IMG/VR virus record: IMGVR_UViG_3300046538_000303
Coordinates: 1 to 42,890 of that record
Strand: one strand, 5' to 3'
Origin: a virus
DNA: 42,890 nucleotides
Shown here in pieces: positions 31,278 through 41,346 of the stretch. The notes beneath the pieces were generated by a model. The model was not told the origin of the DNA. It was given only the letters and a program-made list of their open reading frames with translations, and made no database searches. How positions within the stretch are numbered: the first letter of the stretch is position 1; each line of letters opens with the position of its first letter. The translations under genes were made by a program, and so were the position numbers.

Positions 31278-31479
31278 CCCTCAACATCCTCAACATACCC
31301 TCAACACATCTAACCTTTTGTTTTCATTATCTTTATTGACGGTATTGAGACTATTGAGGGTTAAATTGAAATTGAGTTGAATTCAATTCGCCGCTTCCTT
31401 CCTTGGCTTGCCCTTCTTTGCCCACCACGCGTGCGCGTGGAGCCTCAAAAAACCATCAACACCCTCAACACCCTCAACA
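31278..31479. repeat. Three clusters of three 9-bp repeats, candidate replication origin
   Basis: In the roughly 300-bp gap between the 334-aa gene and the large helicase gene lie nine related 9-mers. Cluster 1: CCCTCAACA 31278-31286, TCCTCAACA 31287-31295, CCCTCAACA 31298-31306. Cluster 2, opposite orientation: TATTGACGG 31334-31342, TATTGAGAC 31343-31351, TATTGAGGG 31352-31360. Cluster 3: CCATCAACA 31453-31461, CCCTCAACA 31462-31470 and 31471-31479. The common form is TRTTGAGGG. Between clusters 2 and 3 there is a perfect inverted repeat CCACGCG-TG-CGCGTGG (31425-31440), and near 31503-31528 CACATGT-N12-ACATGTG. The A/T-rich stretch at 31310-31390 could unwind. Iterons next to an initiator-type helicase gene suggest an origin. 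Confidence 0.62.
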
Positions 31480-31533
31480 TTGCCTTAATATTCAATCACT
31501 TACACATGTTGACACTTGACGACATGTGGACGG

Positions 31534-34500
31534 TTAACCCTCCATAACTGGCTCGCCTCGATGTCGGTATGCCTTCAAGTCCTTCTCGAACAGCGCACTG
31601 GCGGACTCGGCCCATTCGCGCAGGGTCTGGCCGGGCGGGTGATCACCCACCAGGAACACAAACCTCTGCTTCACCTTCTCGCCGTATTCGTACAGGATTG
31701 CCTTCTTGCGTAGCGCATCGCCGGCATAGCGCTCAACCGAGGGACTGAATATAGTCAGCGAGGTGTACTTCGATTCGCCGGACCGGTTGCACCACACCTG
31801 GAAGGCGTCATACAGCTGCTGCACCGCGCAGGTAACGAAAGGCAAAGGCAACAGCCCGCGCGACCATTCACGATAGAAGCGCTCGGCGGGCGCCAAGCTC
31901 TTCTCGATCAGGTTGTCTTTTGCCTCGTTGTAGAGGGGCTTGGTGTGCTCGTTGAAGTCGCCCATGTCCAGCTCGTACATGAGGTAGTGATAGAACGCCT
32001 GGATGCCCCCGGCCTCGATCTCCTTCCAGACGCCTTTGTAGAAGTCGGCGCCAAGGGCCGGCGGCGTCCACACCACCAGGTAGCGCCGATCGGTCTTGTC
32101 GAGCGCGAGCGGCTGCAGCTCGTTGGAGAGGAACACGAAGTTCATCTGGTTCTTCTCCGCGTGCTCCGGCAGCCCCTTCGGGTTGACGATAACGGTGTCG
32201 CCGGCCACCAGGTACTTGAGCTTGCCCTTCATCTGCTTGAGCTCGGCGCGCGTGACCACCTCGTCGGCCACCATAAAGAGCTTCATCGAGGCCCAGTCGT
32301 TGAAGTTCGACTCCAGCTGGGCGTTGCCAATGACATAGCCATATTCCCCGTAGATGGCCTTGACCACCTTCTCGAAGAAGAAGTTCTTACCGGAACCCTC
32401 GTCGCCGTGCATGATGATGGAGGTTTCCATCTTCGCGCCAGGGTTGCGCAGTGGGAAGGCCAGCCAACGCAGAATCCAGGTCTCCAGCTCGTGGTTGCCG
32501 TCGCACAGGTGCAGCAGCAGGACGCGGATCTGGAAGCAAATTCCCGCCTTCGGTTTCATGGGCCAACCGCTGAACAGATTGACAGTCGCGGTCGGGCCGC
32601 TCTCGGCAGGCGACGGCGTGTCCTTCGGATCGAACACGATGTTCTTCTTCAGCACCCATTTGCGCGAGTCTCCGGACCAGAACTTCATCACGTCGCTGTT
32701 CGCGACGATCGTGCGCATCGCCGACACCTTCATCAACATACGCTGCCGGCAGTCCCACACCAGGTCCTCGCCGTAGATCAGGATGAAGTTCTCGAGCACG
32801 TCGTCGACTGCGTCCCAATGCGCTTGCCCGTAGACCTTCTTGGGCTTTTCTTTCCGCGCCTTCTCGCCGTCATCCGTCTCATCCCCCTCCCCCCGCGCGG
32901 GAGCGGAGCCGGGTGCCATCGGCGGATACATCTTCGCCTGCACCGGCACCGCGTTCGGCAGGACATCATCCGCACCAAATCGCTCATCAAAATCCGTCGG
33001 CATTTCCTCAGCCGCCCCCTCCTCTGGCCGCTCCGCACCGAGGGGGGCGGGGGGAACGCCGCCGGCGCCGGCCGCCGCCGCTGGAGGGGTGAGGGGAGAT
33101 GGCGCAGCTGGCTGCTCGTCGACCGTGACCGCTTGCGCGGGTGGGGCGGGAGGGAAGGATGTGCGCTGCTCCGCAGCGAGGAGAGGTTCGCCGGCATCCG
33201 CCGGCTCCAGGATCTCCCGGTTACCGTTCGACTGCATCGACGACACGACGCCTGCCTGCTCCATCTGTTCGAGCAGACGAGCTGCCCGGTTGTAACCGAT
33301 ACGAAGATGACGCTGAACCAGGGAGATCGATGCCCGACGATGCGTAAGGATGATGTCGACTGCTTGACCGTAAAGCGCATCGGACTCGTCGTCGTCCTTG
33401 GCCGCTTGCGCGGGTTCCGGGGTGGCGATGAATGTGCGCTGCTGCGCAGCGAGGATGGCACAACGAACTTGCTCCGCTACGGACTCCGACCCTTCCTCAA
33501 TCTGCAAATCGTTGTAGTCGGTGAGCTTGCGGCCGGCGCGGTCGACGGCGAACACAGGCACGACCACGGACGCGTTGCCGACTTCGGCCGCGGCCGCATG
33601 GCTGCTGGCGACGCCAGCGTTCTTGAACGTCGGCGTGCGAACCAGGCGGCCCTTGCGCATATCCGCCTCGATGAAGCGGATGCCTTGGGCGTCCGTACGC
33701 CAGCTCGCCAGGACCTCGACCGTCTCGCCGTCATCTGCCAGCACCGTGTGCGAGGCGCCGTCGATCGGCACCTGGACCGAGACGCCGAAGTCCTCGAGCA
33801 GCCGCTCGGCGAACCGCTCGACGAGCAAGTAGTCGTCGTCAGCCAGGAAGAGCAGGTGGGCGTTCGGGTATCGCTTGCGCAGCAGCCGCGCGACGTGCAC
33901 CAGGTTGCCGGCATTCAGAGCCATGGCGACTGGCAGGTCGTACGAGCCCGCGACAGCCTGCCGTGCACTGGCGCACGTTGCGTAGCCCTCGCCGACCGCG
34001 ATGATCGGCGCGCCGGCCAGCGTGCCCAGCACATGGGCGACACCAATCGCGTCCATGCCGCTGTTGAGCTTCTTCTCACCATCGGGATCGATCTTCTGCA
34101 GGCCCAGCAACTGGCCATCGCGCACGAGCGGGATCATCAGCAGTTTGCCATCGGGGCTGACACGCAGGCCTTCGGCCGCTACCTGTTTGCGTGCCAGGTA
34201 CGGATGCTCGACTGGGACGCCCGCTGCCTTGCTCCACTGGTCGCGTGCACGATTTGCCGCGAGCCGCACTTCCTCGGCACGCTTTTCCTCTTCGGCCTTC
34301 TCAGCCGCACGCTGCTGACGGACGTACTCGGCACGTTCATCGGCCGACATCGCCTCGACGTCGACCTTGACCGGCACCGTATTGCGGTTTTCGCCTTGAA
34401 AGAAGCCGAAGGCACCGGTGACGACCTCACGACCGGAGCGCAGCGTCATCCTTCGAAGGATGTACCAGCCCTTTTTCTGCGGGCCAAATCGTTTGAACTT

Positions 34501-34584
34501 CCCGTCAAGGACGGGGTGATTCGCTGGCAGCTGCGGCATGCCGTATTCCGCCATCTGTGCTACTACCTGACCTACGTCGCTCAT
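31534..34584 (-). CDS. Primase/helicase-type replication protein with Toprim, FtsK-gamma and SF3 helicase parts
   Basis: A 1016-aa replication protein. Residues about 190-280 form a Toprim-like domain ([26 protein letters not shown]). About 398-458 is a clear FtsK gamma winged helix: [20 protein letters not shown] followed by [12 protein letters not shown] Pro/Ala-rich linker (about 465-560) leads to a superfamily 3 (DUF5906-like) helicase with Walker [12 protein letters not shown] (Lys about 732), Walker [10 protein letters not shown] (about 773), sensor FVFLSN, and an Arg finger in DRRYLVVW (about 831). No obvious polymerase-type primase motif is seen. The start overlaps the 146-aa gene (ATGA). 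It probably opens and unwinds the phage origin. Confidence 0.92.
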
Positions 34585-38192: not shown

Positions 38193-40349
38193 ATGGCACT
38201 CCCCCCGCCGCTTTCTGCACACGACCTGGCAATCGCTGACGCCCAGGCACAGCACACCTTCGATGACGGCTACTACGGTCACTTCGAGATTGCCAAGCTG
38301 CGCGCCTCACCCGACAACCGCAAGCGCTTTAATGAGCAGGCCCTGCAGGAACTGGCCGAGAGCATCAAGGCCATGGGCGTCGCTCAAGCCATCCTGATCC
38401 GCCCGGTGACGCCCACCGAAGAAGCGCCCCAGGAGTTCGAGATCGTCGCCGGCGAGCGCCGCTTCCGCGCATCGAAGATCGCCGGCAAGACCCATATTCC
38501 GGCGCTGTGCCGGAAGCTCAGCGACCTGGACGCGGCCAAGATCCGTATCCTCGAGAACCTGCAGCGCGAAGACCCGCATCCGATGGAAGAGGCCGAGGGC
38601 TACCAGCTGCTCATGCTGCAGCACGGCTTTACGGCCGACCAACTGGTGGACGAGGTGAAGAAAAGTCGTGCCTACATTTATGGGCGCTTGAAGCTGTGCG
38701 CGTTGGCAAGCGAGGTCCGCGAGCAGTTCCTCGACAACAAGCTGTCCGCGTCCACTGCACTGTTGGTCGCCCGCATCCCCGTCCCCGCCCTGCAGGTCAA
38801 GGCCGCACAAGAAATCCTCTCCCCGACTTATGGCGAACCGATGTCCCACCGGGCCGCGGCATCCCATATTCAAAACCGCTACATGCTAAAGCTGAATGCG
38901 GCCGTCTTTTCCGTCACCGATGCAAAGCTGTTGTCCGCGGCCGGCGCGTGCACAAAATGCCCGAAACGGACCGGGAACCAGCCCGAAATTTTCGACGGCA
39001 TCGACGCAAACGTCTGCACAGATCCGGACTGCTTCGCGGAAAAGCGAGCGGCACATAGCGCGGCAGTACTTGTTCAGGCCAATAAAGAAGGCATCCCCGT
39101 CCTCGAGGGCGACGAGGCGAACCAAACGCTCTCGCGCCGTTTCAGCCAGGACAGTGAACTTGTGACGCCCGACATGAACCTCTGGTATTTCAAGCGTAAC
39201 GCTCCGTCCACTCAGAATAACGGCTACGTCAAAGACTTCCTGACCGACGACGTCATGCCGACTGTCGCAGGCTATGTGAAAAAGGACGACGTCAACCTGA
39301 CCCCGCTCTATAAGCGCGTTGATATGCAAGCGGCCCTCGAGAAGGTCGGTGCCTGCGAAACGGTGGAAGCCTACACCGAACGGATGGCAACGGTACAGAC
39401 TACGACACCCATATCCGCCAAGGCCGAAGCCGAGAGGAAGAAGCAGGCGGAGTTCGAAAAGCAGGCGACCGAGGTGACGAAGTTCCGCGTCGCGCTCTAT
39501 ATGAAGTTGCGCATCCGCGCCGCTGAGAACGGCTTCAGCTTGCAATCGCTTCGCGAGATCACCAAGGTTCTGCTGAATGAGTTCGGCCTGCCGCGTGAGC
39601 TACGTGACGCGTATGCTTTCGATCCCCAGAGCGGCGATGAGGTAAACAAATATGTCGACCAGGCTGGCCTCCCGGAGATCCAGCTGCTCATGGTCGACTC
39701 CATTTTTGGCGGCGCTTTTGACGTCAGCGCTTATGACATCAAGAACGGTCACGCCGACGAGGACGACTTCTCGGTGCTCCTGAATATCGCCCAAAACGAA
39801 GGCATCGACGCCAATCAGATCCGCGAGGAATTGTTCCCGCAGCCGATCGACGTTACCAACATGCAGTACAGCGCCCTGGTCGACTTTATCAGGTCGAAGC
39901 CGAACCGCATCAACGAACTGAAAGACGCTGTGCTGCACTGTGGACCGCGCGGCGATCTCGTCGGCCCGCTCGAGCAAGCTGCGACCAGCTTGGGCTACGT
40001 CTACAGGGAGCGCGCTTTTGTTCTCGCCGACGCTGATGCGTCCCCTCCAGCAGTTGATCAGGTCGAGCATGCTCCGGCCCCGGCCGACGAAACAACTACT
40101 GCAGTGCGACAGGCCGAAGAGGCACAGCCAGCGGCTAACCAGGTCGACGGCGAACAGCTGGCCGAGCAGATGGCCGAGGTGACGCCGGCGACGGCCGATA
40201 GCGACGTGCAGACGTCTGTACTCGACAAGAAGGCCAAAGCGAAGCCGCCCGCAAAAACCAGCACGAGCAAAAAGGCCGCGACGCCGGCGCCGTCGAAGAA
40301 GCCTGTGCCGGCGGCCTCGACGTCGCGCAGCAAAGCCAAGGCAGCGTAA
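38193..40349 (+). CDS. ParB-like protein (no ParA partner seen)
   Basis: A 718-aa protein. The N-terminal ParB/Srx fold has the CTP-binding motifs GERRFRA (87-93) and ENLQRED (121-127), followed by an HTH-like region (about 145-170, FTADQLVDEVKKSRAYIYGR). A Cys cluster, CTKCPKRTGN then CTDPDCF (about 250-275), is probably a zinc site. A large middle region is helical, and the last 130 residues are disordered Ala/Lys/Pro-rich. ParB proteins load on DNA as CTP-driven clamps. AGGAG precedes the ATG. There is no parA nearby, so a role in DNA organisation, replication control or transcription is more likely than partition. Confidence 0.87.
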   Translation: MALPPPLSAHDLAIADAQAQHTFDDGYYGHFEIAKLRASPDNRKRFNEQALQELAESIKAMGVAQAILIRPVTPTEEAPQEFEIVAGERRFRASKIAGKTHIPALCRKLSDLDAAKIRILENLQREDPHPMEEAEGYQLLMLQHGFTADQLVDEVKKSRAYIYGRLKLCALASEVREQFLDNKLSASTALLVARIPVPALQVKAAQEILSPTYGEPMSHRAAASHIQNRYMLKLNAAVFSVTDAKLLSAAGACTKCPKRTGNQPEIFDGIDANVCTDPDCFAEKRAAHSAAVLVQANKEGIPVLEGDEANQTLSRRFSQDSELVTPDMNLWYFKRNAPSTQNNGYVKDFLTDDVMPTVAGYVKKDDVNLTPLYKRVDMQAALEKVGACETVEAYTERMATVQTTTPISAKAEAERKKQAEFEKQATEVTKFRVALYMKLRIRAAENGFSLQSLREITKVLLNEFGLPRELRDAYAFDPQSGDEVNKYVDQAGLPEIQLLMVDSIFGGAFDVSAYDIKNGHADEDDFSVLLNIAQNEGIDANQIREELFPQPIDVTNMQYSALVDFIRSKPNRINELKDAVLHCGPRGDLVGPLEQAATSLGYVYRERAFVLADADASPPAVDQVEHAPAPADETTTAVRQAEEAQPAANQVDGEQLAEQMAEVTPATADSDVQTSVLDKKAKAKPPAKTSTSKKAATPAPSKKPVPAASTSRSKAKAA

Positions 40350-40600
40350 TGAGCCTGAGCCAACCGGCCATCAGCGCGATCGTCTCGGCGCTGCTCCACG
40401 AACGGAAGACCCTTGCGGCCGACCTGGCGTTCTGGAGTGCGCGAGCACGACGCGCTGGCAAGACGTCCTACTGCCAGCAGATCAGCCAGTCGCTGCAGGA
40501 GAACACGACAGCACTGGTCGAGCTCGCGAACGGTATGGCCCCCTGGCTCAGACAACATCCCGAATACGTACTCATCAATAAAGAGAAAGACACGGCATGA
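40349..40600 (+). CDS. Hypothetical early protein
   Basis: An 83-aa, mainly helical protein (MSLSQPAISAIVSALLHERK) with ADLAFWSARARRAGKTSYCQ (about 24-43). The start overlaps the ParB-like stop by one base (TAATG) and the stop overlaps the helicase start (ATGA), so it is expressed with both. The charge pattern suggests a nucleic-acid or protein adaptor, but no family is recognised. Confidence 0.65.
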   Translation: MSLSQPAISAIVSALLHERKTLAADLAFWSARARRAGKTSYCQQISQSLQENTTALVELANGMAPWLRQHPEYVLINKEKDTA

Positions 40601-41346
40601 ACCCGCTCACTCAATTCCTGAAAGCTCGGCTGGCTGCGCTCGCTGAGACCTCTACCCGCTTCGGCAAGCTGGTCAAGCGTGCGCAACCGCCAGTCGCCGT
40701 CCACGCGCGGCCCGGGCACTGCGGCAATATCCTTACCCTGCTCGCCCACCTGTGCGACATGGACGACGACATGCAGCTGTACGTCCTGCGCTGGCTAGCC
40801 TACCCGCTTCGCAACCCTGGCGCGAAGATGTCGGCTGCGCTCGTTTTCAACGGCGGACAGGGCTCGGGCAAGAGCTTGTTTTTCACCCACATCGCAGCGG
40901 CCCTGTTTGGGGAAAATGCTGTAAAGATCAGGCCCAGCGACCTGTACAGCAAGTTCAACTACTGGGCGGTGGGCGCTAACCTGGTCGTCGTCGACGGCGA
41001 CTTCGTTCCGCAGCATCTGGAGCGCATCAAGGCCTATCAGTCCGCAGGGACCTTTGAGATCACGCTCAAGGGCCACGAAGCTCGATCCGTCGTCAATCGC
41101 TTAAGCTTTGTTTATCTGTCGAACCGTGACGACTTCCTGCCGGCAGACACCGGCAACCGACGTTTTGTCGTCGTAGAAGTCCCGCCAGCACGTCCTCGGG
41201 GCTTCTATCAAGCGATAGTGCATGAGATCGCCAATGGCGGCATCGACGCCTTCCGCGAATACCTGATGCACGGTCTCGACATGGGTGACTTCAACGAGAA
41301 CACGTTGCCGCCGCCGGCGCAGCACGAAGGCCGGAGGGCCGCGTGA
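40597..41346 (+). CDS. Stand-alone SF3 helicase core (paralogue of the large helicase)
   Basis: A 249-aa protein that corresponds to the helicase part of the 1016-aa protein: [15 protein letters not shown] (64-78) parallels [15 protein letters not shown] there, Walker A GGQGSGKS (86-93, Lys92), Walker B-like VVVDGD (131-135) where the larger protein has VADE, sensor FVYLSN (Asn176), and Arg finger NRRFVVV (188-194). Both end the core with MGDFNE. It lacks Toprim, FtsK-gamma and the C-terminal extension. Loss of the Walker B Glu may reduce ATP hydrolysis. Confidence 0.88.
   Translation: MNPLTQFLKARLAALAETSTRFGKLVKRAQPPVAVHARPGHCGNILTLLAHLCDMDDDMQLYVLRWLAYPLRNPGAKMSAALVFNGGQGSGKSLFFTHIAAALFGENAVKIRPSDLYSKFNYWAVGANLVVVDGDFVPQHLERIKAYQSAGTFEITLKGHEARSVVNRLSFVYLSNRDDFLPADTGNRRFVVVEVPPARPRGFYQAIVHEIANGGIDAFREYLMHGLDMGDFNENTLPPPAQHEGRRAA

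Follow-up and report, generated by a model that had tools for sequence, protein, structure and literature searches.

The window analyzed here (42,890 nucleotides of the viral record IMGVR_UViG_3300046538_000303) encodes an integrase, terminase, portal, protease, contractile-tail sheath, tape measure and CI-like repressor. The integrase, the CI-like repressor, and the sheath and other structural genes indicate a temperate, contractile-tailed phage, for which no exact DNA similarity to known phages was found. A gene on the minus strand (31534-34584) encodes a 1016-aa protein comprising a Toprim primase, an FtsK-gamma insert, a DUF5906/SF3 helicase and a C-terminal winged helix, and an array of 9-bp repeats (31278-31533, 256 bp) starts right behind its stop codon. 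The far end of the array lies approximately 40-70 bp ahead of the start of the next gene, according to the start codon chosen. Elsewhere in the window, a shorter helicase-like protein (249 aa, 40597-41346, plus strand; matches to PHROGs 1156 and 2249), possibly a helicase-only paralogue of the primase-helicase, is encoded near genes for an exonuclease and a 718-aa ParB-like protein (38193-40349, plus strand). The ParB-like protein occurs at roughly 700-850 aa in the records of 13 out of 15 close relatives and is absent from three distant relatives with the same kind of iteron array.

The 1016-aa protein matched PHROG 2249 (DNA primase, 1.7e-119) and the Pfam families DUF5906 (9.3e-19) and FtsK_gamma (1.7e-25), and its Toprim-type primase region is 32% identical to P4 alpha over residues 149-251 (E 9e-11). 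An AlphaFold2 model of residues 581-1016 (mean pLDDT 88), based on an alignment of 38 sequences from which the rows of one phage collection were left out, predicts a winged helix of helix-helix-strand-strand topology at residues 921-979 (31648-31824, minus strand), the proposed iteron reader. In a fold search, the helicase region of NrS-1 was the closest neighbor (6k9c, TM 0.65-0.68) and the SaPI5 primase-helicase the second best, with PriRep1 with dsDNA also listed. The FtsK gamma domain (residues 400-459; 33208-33387, minus strand), a KOPS-binding winged helix, is located in a variable linker and closely matches FtsK domains of known structure. Fewer than half of the relatives have it (L003, L005, L007, L010-L013, L020 and L027), at shifting positions, and it possibly serves to target host FtsK/XerCD sites. 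No Pfam match to a RepA/pi-type initiator was obtained in the adjacent genes scanned.

An earlier note on this DNA had described nine repeats of the form TRTTGAGGG at 31278-31479, in three groups of three with the middle group inverted, and had read them as an initiator-binding origin next to the replication gene. The nine copies and their grouping were recovered here: the middle triplet (31334, 31343 and 31352) lies on the plus strand and both outer triplets on the minus strand, so that the strand of the gene reads +++ --- +++. The array does adjoin the replication gene, but on its 3' (downstream) side and not upstream. The count of nine was too low, as two additional copies on the plus strand, i1 (31525-31533, TGTGGACGG) and i2 (31507-31515, TGTTGACAC), had been missed; these are counted as members because in relatives both switch type along with the other copies. 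The array thus comprises eleven iterons in a 2+3+3+3 layout (-- +++ --- +++ on the gene strand), in which i1 and i2 are followed by a minus-strand triplet (i3, 31471-31479, TGTTGAGGG; i4, 31462-31470, TGTTGAGGG; i5, 31453-31461, TGTTGATGG), a plus-strand triplet (i6, 31352-31360, TATTGAGGG; i7, 31343-31351, TATTGAGAC; i8, 31334-31342, TATTGACGG) and a second minus-strand triplet (i9, 31298-31306, TGTTGAGGG; i10, 31287-31295, TGTTGAGGA; i11, 31278-31286, TGTTGAGGG). Spacing inside the triplets is 9 bp, with one 11-bp step. A further possible copy, i0 (TATGGAGGG, 31538-31546, minus strand, one mismatch), overlaps the primase stop and 3' end; it is doubtful and tracks locus type less well than i1-i11.

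Clustering of the repeats is far above background. All five perfect copies of TRTTGAGGG in the 42.9-kb record are inside the array region, and nine of the 19 copies with one mismatch fall within 281 bp, where 0.066 would be expected from the rest of the record (Poisson p 6e-17). The best 8-mer reaches 10 copies in the array, compared with at most seven in any other 281-bp interval of the record (mean 4.1). A word search detected no second iteron cluster in the record, and its cumulative GC skew has no turning point at the array.

Rather than the single A/T-rich stretch noted before, two are present, at 31361-31388 (82% AT, with relatives AT-rich at the same offset) and 31307-31333 (78% AT), against a genome-wide AT content of 38%. 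The latter lies between the inverted triplets --- and +++ and is a candidate unwinding element. No promoter-like or terminator-like sites were found in the array region, which agrees with the earlier view that this is not a promoter, and a terminator reading was rejected on the same grounds.

Related loci were assembled from a viral scan that used the full protein as query (47 loci), from helicase/C-terminal alignment and from annotated phages. The best 8-mer in the 420 bp past the primase gene had a median of 9 copies (162 distinct loci), and its count exceeded all 20 dinucleotide shuffles in 153/162 loci, although these share descent and do not represent independent events. At least eight copies of one 8-mer occurred in 78% of origins versus 1.9% of random 420-bp windows from the same loci. 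At L170, L070 and L049, no array after the gene beats the shuffles; L049 is a distant match with a possibly miscalled stop codon. Among named genomes, those of Massilia, Duganella and Janthinobacterium hold the closest relatives, and the array is retained at 33-42% protein identity in Halomonas H4907, Pseudomonas PG1 and Turba, Moraxella Mcat5 and Stenotrophomonas S1.

The repeat word itself differs among loci (TGTTGAGGG, TGTGAANGG, TGTGATGGG, TCAGACAG, TGTCGGGT), with TGTTGAGGG, TGTGAACGG and TGTGATGGG as array types and lineage words that also include TGTTGAGG, TGTGAACG, TGTGATGG, TGTTGGCG, TCAGACAG, TTCCGACA, TGTCGGGT, TGTGCGGG and CTAGGGTT. Despite these differences, the clustered layout with inverted groups is retained, and same-strand neighbors across all relatives are mostly spaced 9, 11 or 12 bp apart. 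A search of related phages for the same repeats had been proposed, with their absence in close relatives to count against an origin. Exact TRTTGAGGG is indeed absent near the gene in about one-third of close relatives, but a de novo word search showed that these carry an equivalent array with another word. Hence, literal absence of the repeats is misleading as a refutation, since arrays of other words replace TRTTGAGGG. The gene behind the array belongs to at least four unrelated (non-homologous) groups among 25 loci examined (the ORF picked behind the L017 array is a spurious frame). This change of downstream gene while the array stays put indicates that the array belongs to the primase.

To follow the repeats individually, orthologous iteron positions were aligned in the close group, and each copy was scored against its own and the other locus types. 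At diverged positions, each of i1-i11 agreed with its own locus in 71-84% of cases and with the other locus in 10-23%. Such concerted change of all copies is as expected if one protein domain reads every copy and, together with the fixed layout in well over 100 related viruses and prophages, points to a matched lock-and-key origin family. We then correlated protein distance in sliding windows with the distance between iterons, using the remainder of the helicase half as a control. The partial correlation was positive over a sustained stretch only at C-terminal residues 889-1009, where it was modest in size (peak 0.21 at residues 925-949), and none was found in the N-terminal half. The C-terminal winged helix is therefore the predicted iteron-reading domain, an assignment we consider probable.

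Just ahead of the predicted recognition helix, residues 938 and 941 sort with iteron type. Ser/Thr at these positions accompanies TTGA-like iterons (24/26 GA-class and 4/4 GG-class loci), Pro/Thr accompanies TGAA and Ser/Ile accompanies TGAT; L028 is an exception (Pro938 with GGA/TTGA iterons), and the divergent L064-L067 fall outside the scheme. At L059 (a Formivibrio MAG), the helicase sequence groups with the TGTGATGGG-type (TGAT) set, yet its iterons are of the TGAA type (TGTGAAGGG) and it carries the Pro938 of the TGAA class, in the manner of a natural specificity swap. A test of the residue code on independent pairs was consistent in direction, with three usable pairs, a number at which a sign test cannot reach 0.05. 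The code is treated as a hypothesis here, given that independent iteron-type switches, on which the partial correlation also depends, are few (three on well-supported branches).

Taken together, these comparisons suggest that the 256-bp array is very probably a phage replication origin matched to the adjoining 1016-aa primase-helicase, its predicted binder. The initiator-binding origin proposed in the earlier note is supported by the position of the array 3' of the same primase-helicase gene at 162 loci, whichever gene follows, by the joint change of the repeats, and by the agreement of position and module with P4 crr and the origins of PICIs.

Other roles for the array were weighed against this reading. 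Iteron-like centromeres exist in plasmids, and a ParB_N/HTH_ParB protein is encoded in the window as well as in 13/15 close relatives' records, so the repeats could be a partition (centromere) site for the phage ParB-like protein. The array adjoins the primase, however, and not parB, and the full records of Turba, H4907 and PG1, all with the same kind of array, lack a ParB_N protein, which makes a ParB centromere very unlikely. An operator or promoter array controlling the primase or the downstream gene would fit the intergenic position and the resemblance of TTGA-type repeats to -35 boxes. We regard such a role as comparably improbable, because there is no promoter-like site in the region, TTGA is gone in TGTGAANGG, TGTGATGGG and other types, and the downstream gene switches identity while the array remains constant.

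The strong FtsK_gamma match inside the initiator raises another explanation, namely that this embedded domain reads the iterons as KOPS-like sites: AGGG is common to TTGAGGG and KOPS, and TGAGGG resembles part of GGGNAGGG. KOPS-like GGGNAGGG words number only three in the window, and TGTGAANGG has no KOPS likeness. Iteron type is tracked by C-terminal residues instead, and TTGA-type as well as TGAA-type loci include some with the gamma domain and some without it. The domain is therefore rejected as the general reader of the iterons, and we judge this explanation the least probable of the three.

Initiator-bound short repeats beside an A/T-rich element are familiar from iteron plasmids (RepA/pi) and the lambda ori, although the lambda iterons lie inside the O gene and the RepA/pi and lambda initiators are unrelated to that of the window. 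The best reading of the array is as an iteron origin of the P4 alpha-crr or PICI PriRep-ori kind in full-size temperate phages. P4 alpha likewise combines a Toprim primase, a DUF5906 helicase and a C-terminal wing domain, and crr is annotated directly 3' of its gene, as the array is directly 3' of the primase gene here. In crr, inverted iterons surround an A/T-rich core with the same 9-bp spacing, and the --- A/T +++ half of the window array is the same module; the P4 word GTGAACAGT also resembles the TGTGAACGGT type of relatives. In contrast, P4 is a satellite whose sites are split between crr (two 120-bp repeats) and a distant, separately required ori1, whereas the window record is a full phage with one compact array and no ori1 seen. 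The N-terminal Zn ribbon of P4 alpha, a clear match there, had no match in the 1016-aa protein.

In PICIs, the origin directly follows pri-rep on its 3' side and has an A/T-rich region with iteron sets on either side; in EcCICFT073, a segment with pri-rep and ori supports replication of a plasmid (PMC6092414). The window shares this position immediately 3' of the initiator gene and the flanked A/T-rich core, but PICIs, including SaPIs, are helper-dependent islands, while the window represents a full-size tailed temperate phage with a larger 2+3+3+3 layout. P4 and PICIs, as satellites, have no capsid and tail genes of their own, but terminase, portal, protease, sheath and tape measure genes are all present here. 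Given these structural genes and the lack of ori1 and a Zn ribbon, we class the locus as a P4/PICI variant in mechanism and organization and not as a P4/PICI element. NrS-1, the closest helicase fold, is an AEP PrimPol and not a Toprim enzyme (PMC8718748); it recognizes a template word of 8 nt that its genome contains twice (PMC7102993), and there is no room for an array 3' of its gene.

A 16-bp palindrome reported at 31425-31440 (CCACGCGTGCGCGTGG) is present, but it is imperfect and is not kept as a palindrome in relatives. Inside it lies an alternating purine-pyrimidine, Z-DNA-prone tract (31426-31439, CACGCGTGCGCGTG), and it is this alternation, rather than palindromicity, that is conserved in relatives' origins. 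Of 163 origins, 79% have an alternating run of 14 nt or more, versus 3% of random 300-bp windows from the same loci, and the longest run averages 17.5 nt across these origins versus 9.1 in dinucleotide shuffles. The tracts are mostly centered 90-140 bp past the primase gene, in the close group between the first +++ triplet and the --- triplet. Very long runs occur in the corresponding place of distant origins (about +90 to +160 past the primase stop in L051, L054, L075, L085 and others), reaching 34 nt in L085. Their letters vary, with 83 distinct 12-mers among 146 tracts. Differences between tracts were 60% transitions versus 37-41% in the flanks when one partner was selected for alternation, although the pairs are not independent; selecting both partners makes the comparison circular. 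A palindrome or cruciform reading was rejected, as palindromicity is no higher than alternation alone implies. P4 crr and ori1 lack such a tract (longest run, 7). Under negative supercoiling, alternating CG/CA tracts are prone to adopt the Z form. The theory of Z-DNA is treated elsewhere (PMC3024258). In the open-access literature, we found no description of an alternating tract as a conserved origin feature, and no phage-origin paper dealing with FtsK-gamma primases, DUF5906 origins or Z-DNA at origins of this type.

Under the proposed mechanism, the primase-helicase would bind the eleven 9-bp iterons via its C-terminal winged helix and form SF3 rings on the triplets that face in opposite directions. 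The A/T-rich stretch between those triplets would be opened, and the initiator would unwind and prime in cis. Placed 3' of its own initiator gene, the array would evolve with it as a matched pair, as for P4 alpha/crr and PICI PriRep/ori. The repeats, with their arrangement, conservation, joint change and linkage to the gene, are observed directly. Binding, melting, origin activity and the identity of the reading domain are what we infer for this locus, and the helicase and winged-helix folds are predicted. More tentatively, the conserved alternating tract that separates the first iteron triplet from the second might be functional in the origin, either as a B-to-Z switch driven by supercoiling or as a flexible hinge, and iteron specificity might be fixed by two or three residues (929, 938 and 941) at the recognition helix or ahead of it; this combined proposal is possible but doubtful at present.

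In 2018, this origin organization was presented as restricted to PICIs (PMC6092414). From the sequence comparisons presented here, we argue that full-size phages share it. In Beta- and Gammaproteobacteria, such origins appear to adjoin the initiators of many full-size phages and prophages, a distribution relevant to the source of satellite replicons. The matched iteron and winged-helix variants may amount to a natural experiment in the specificity of initiators for origins, and could supply candidate orthogonal origins. If true, a residue code for iterons would allow orthogonal origins to be read across phages.
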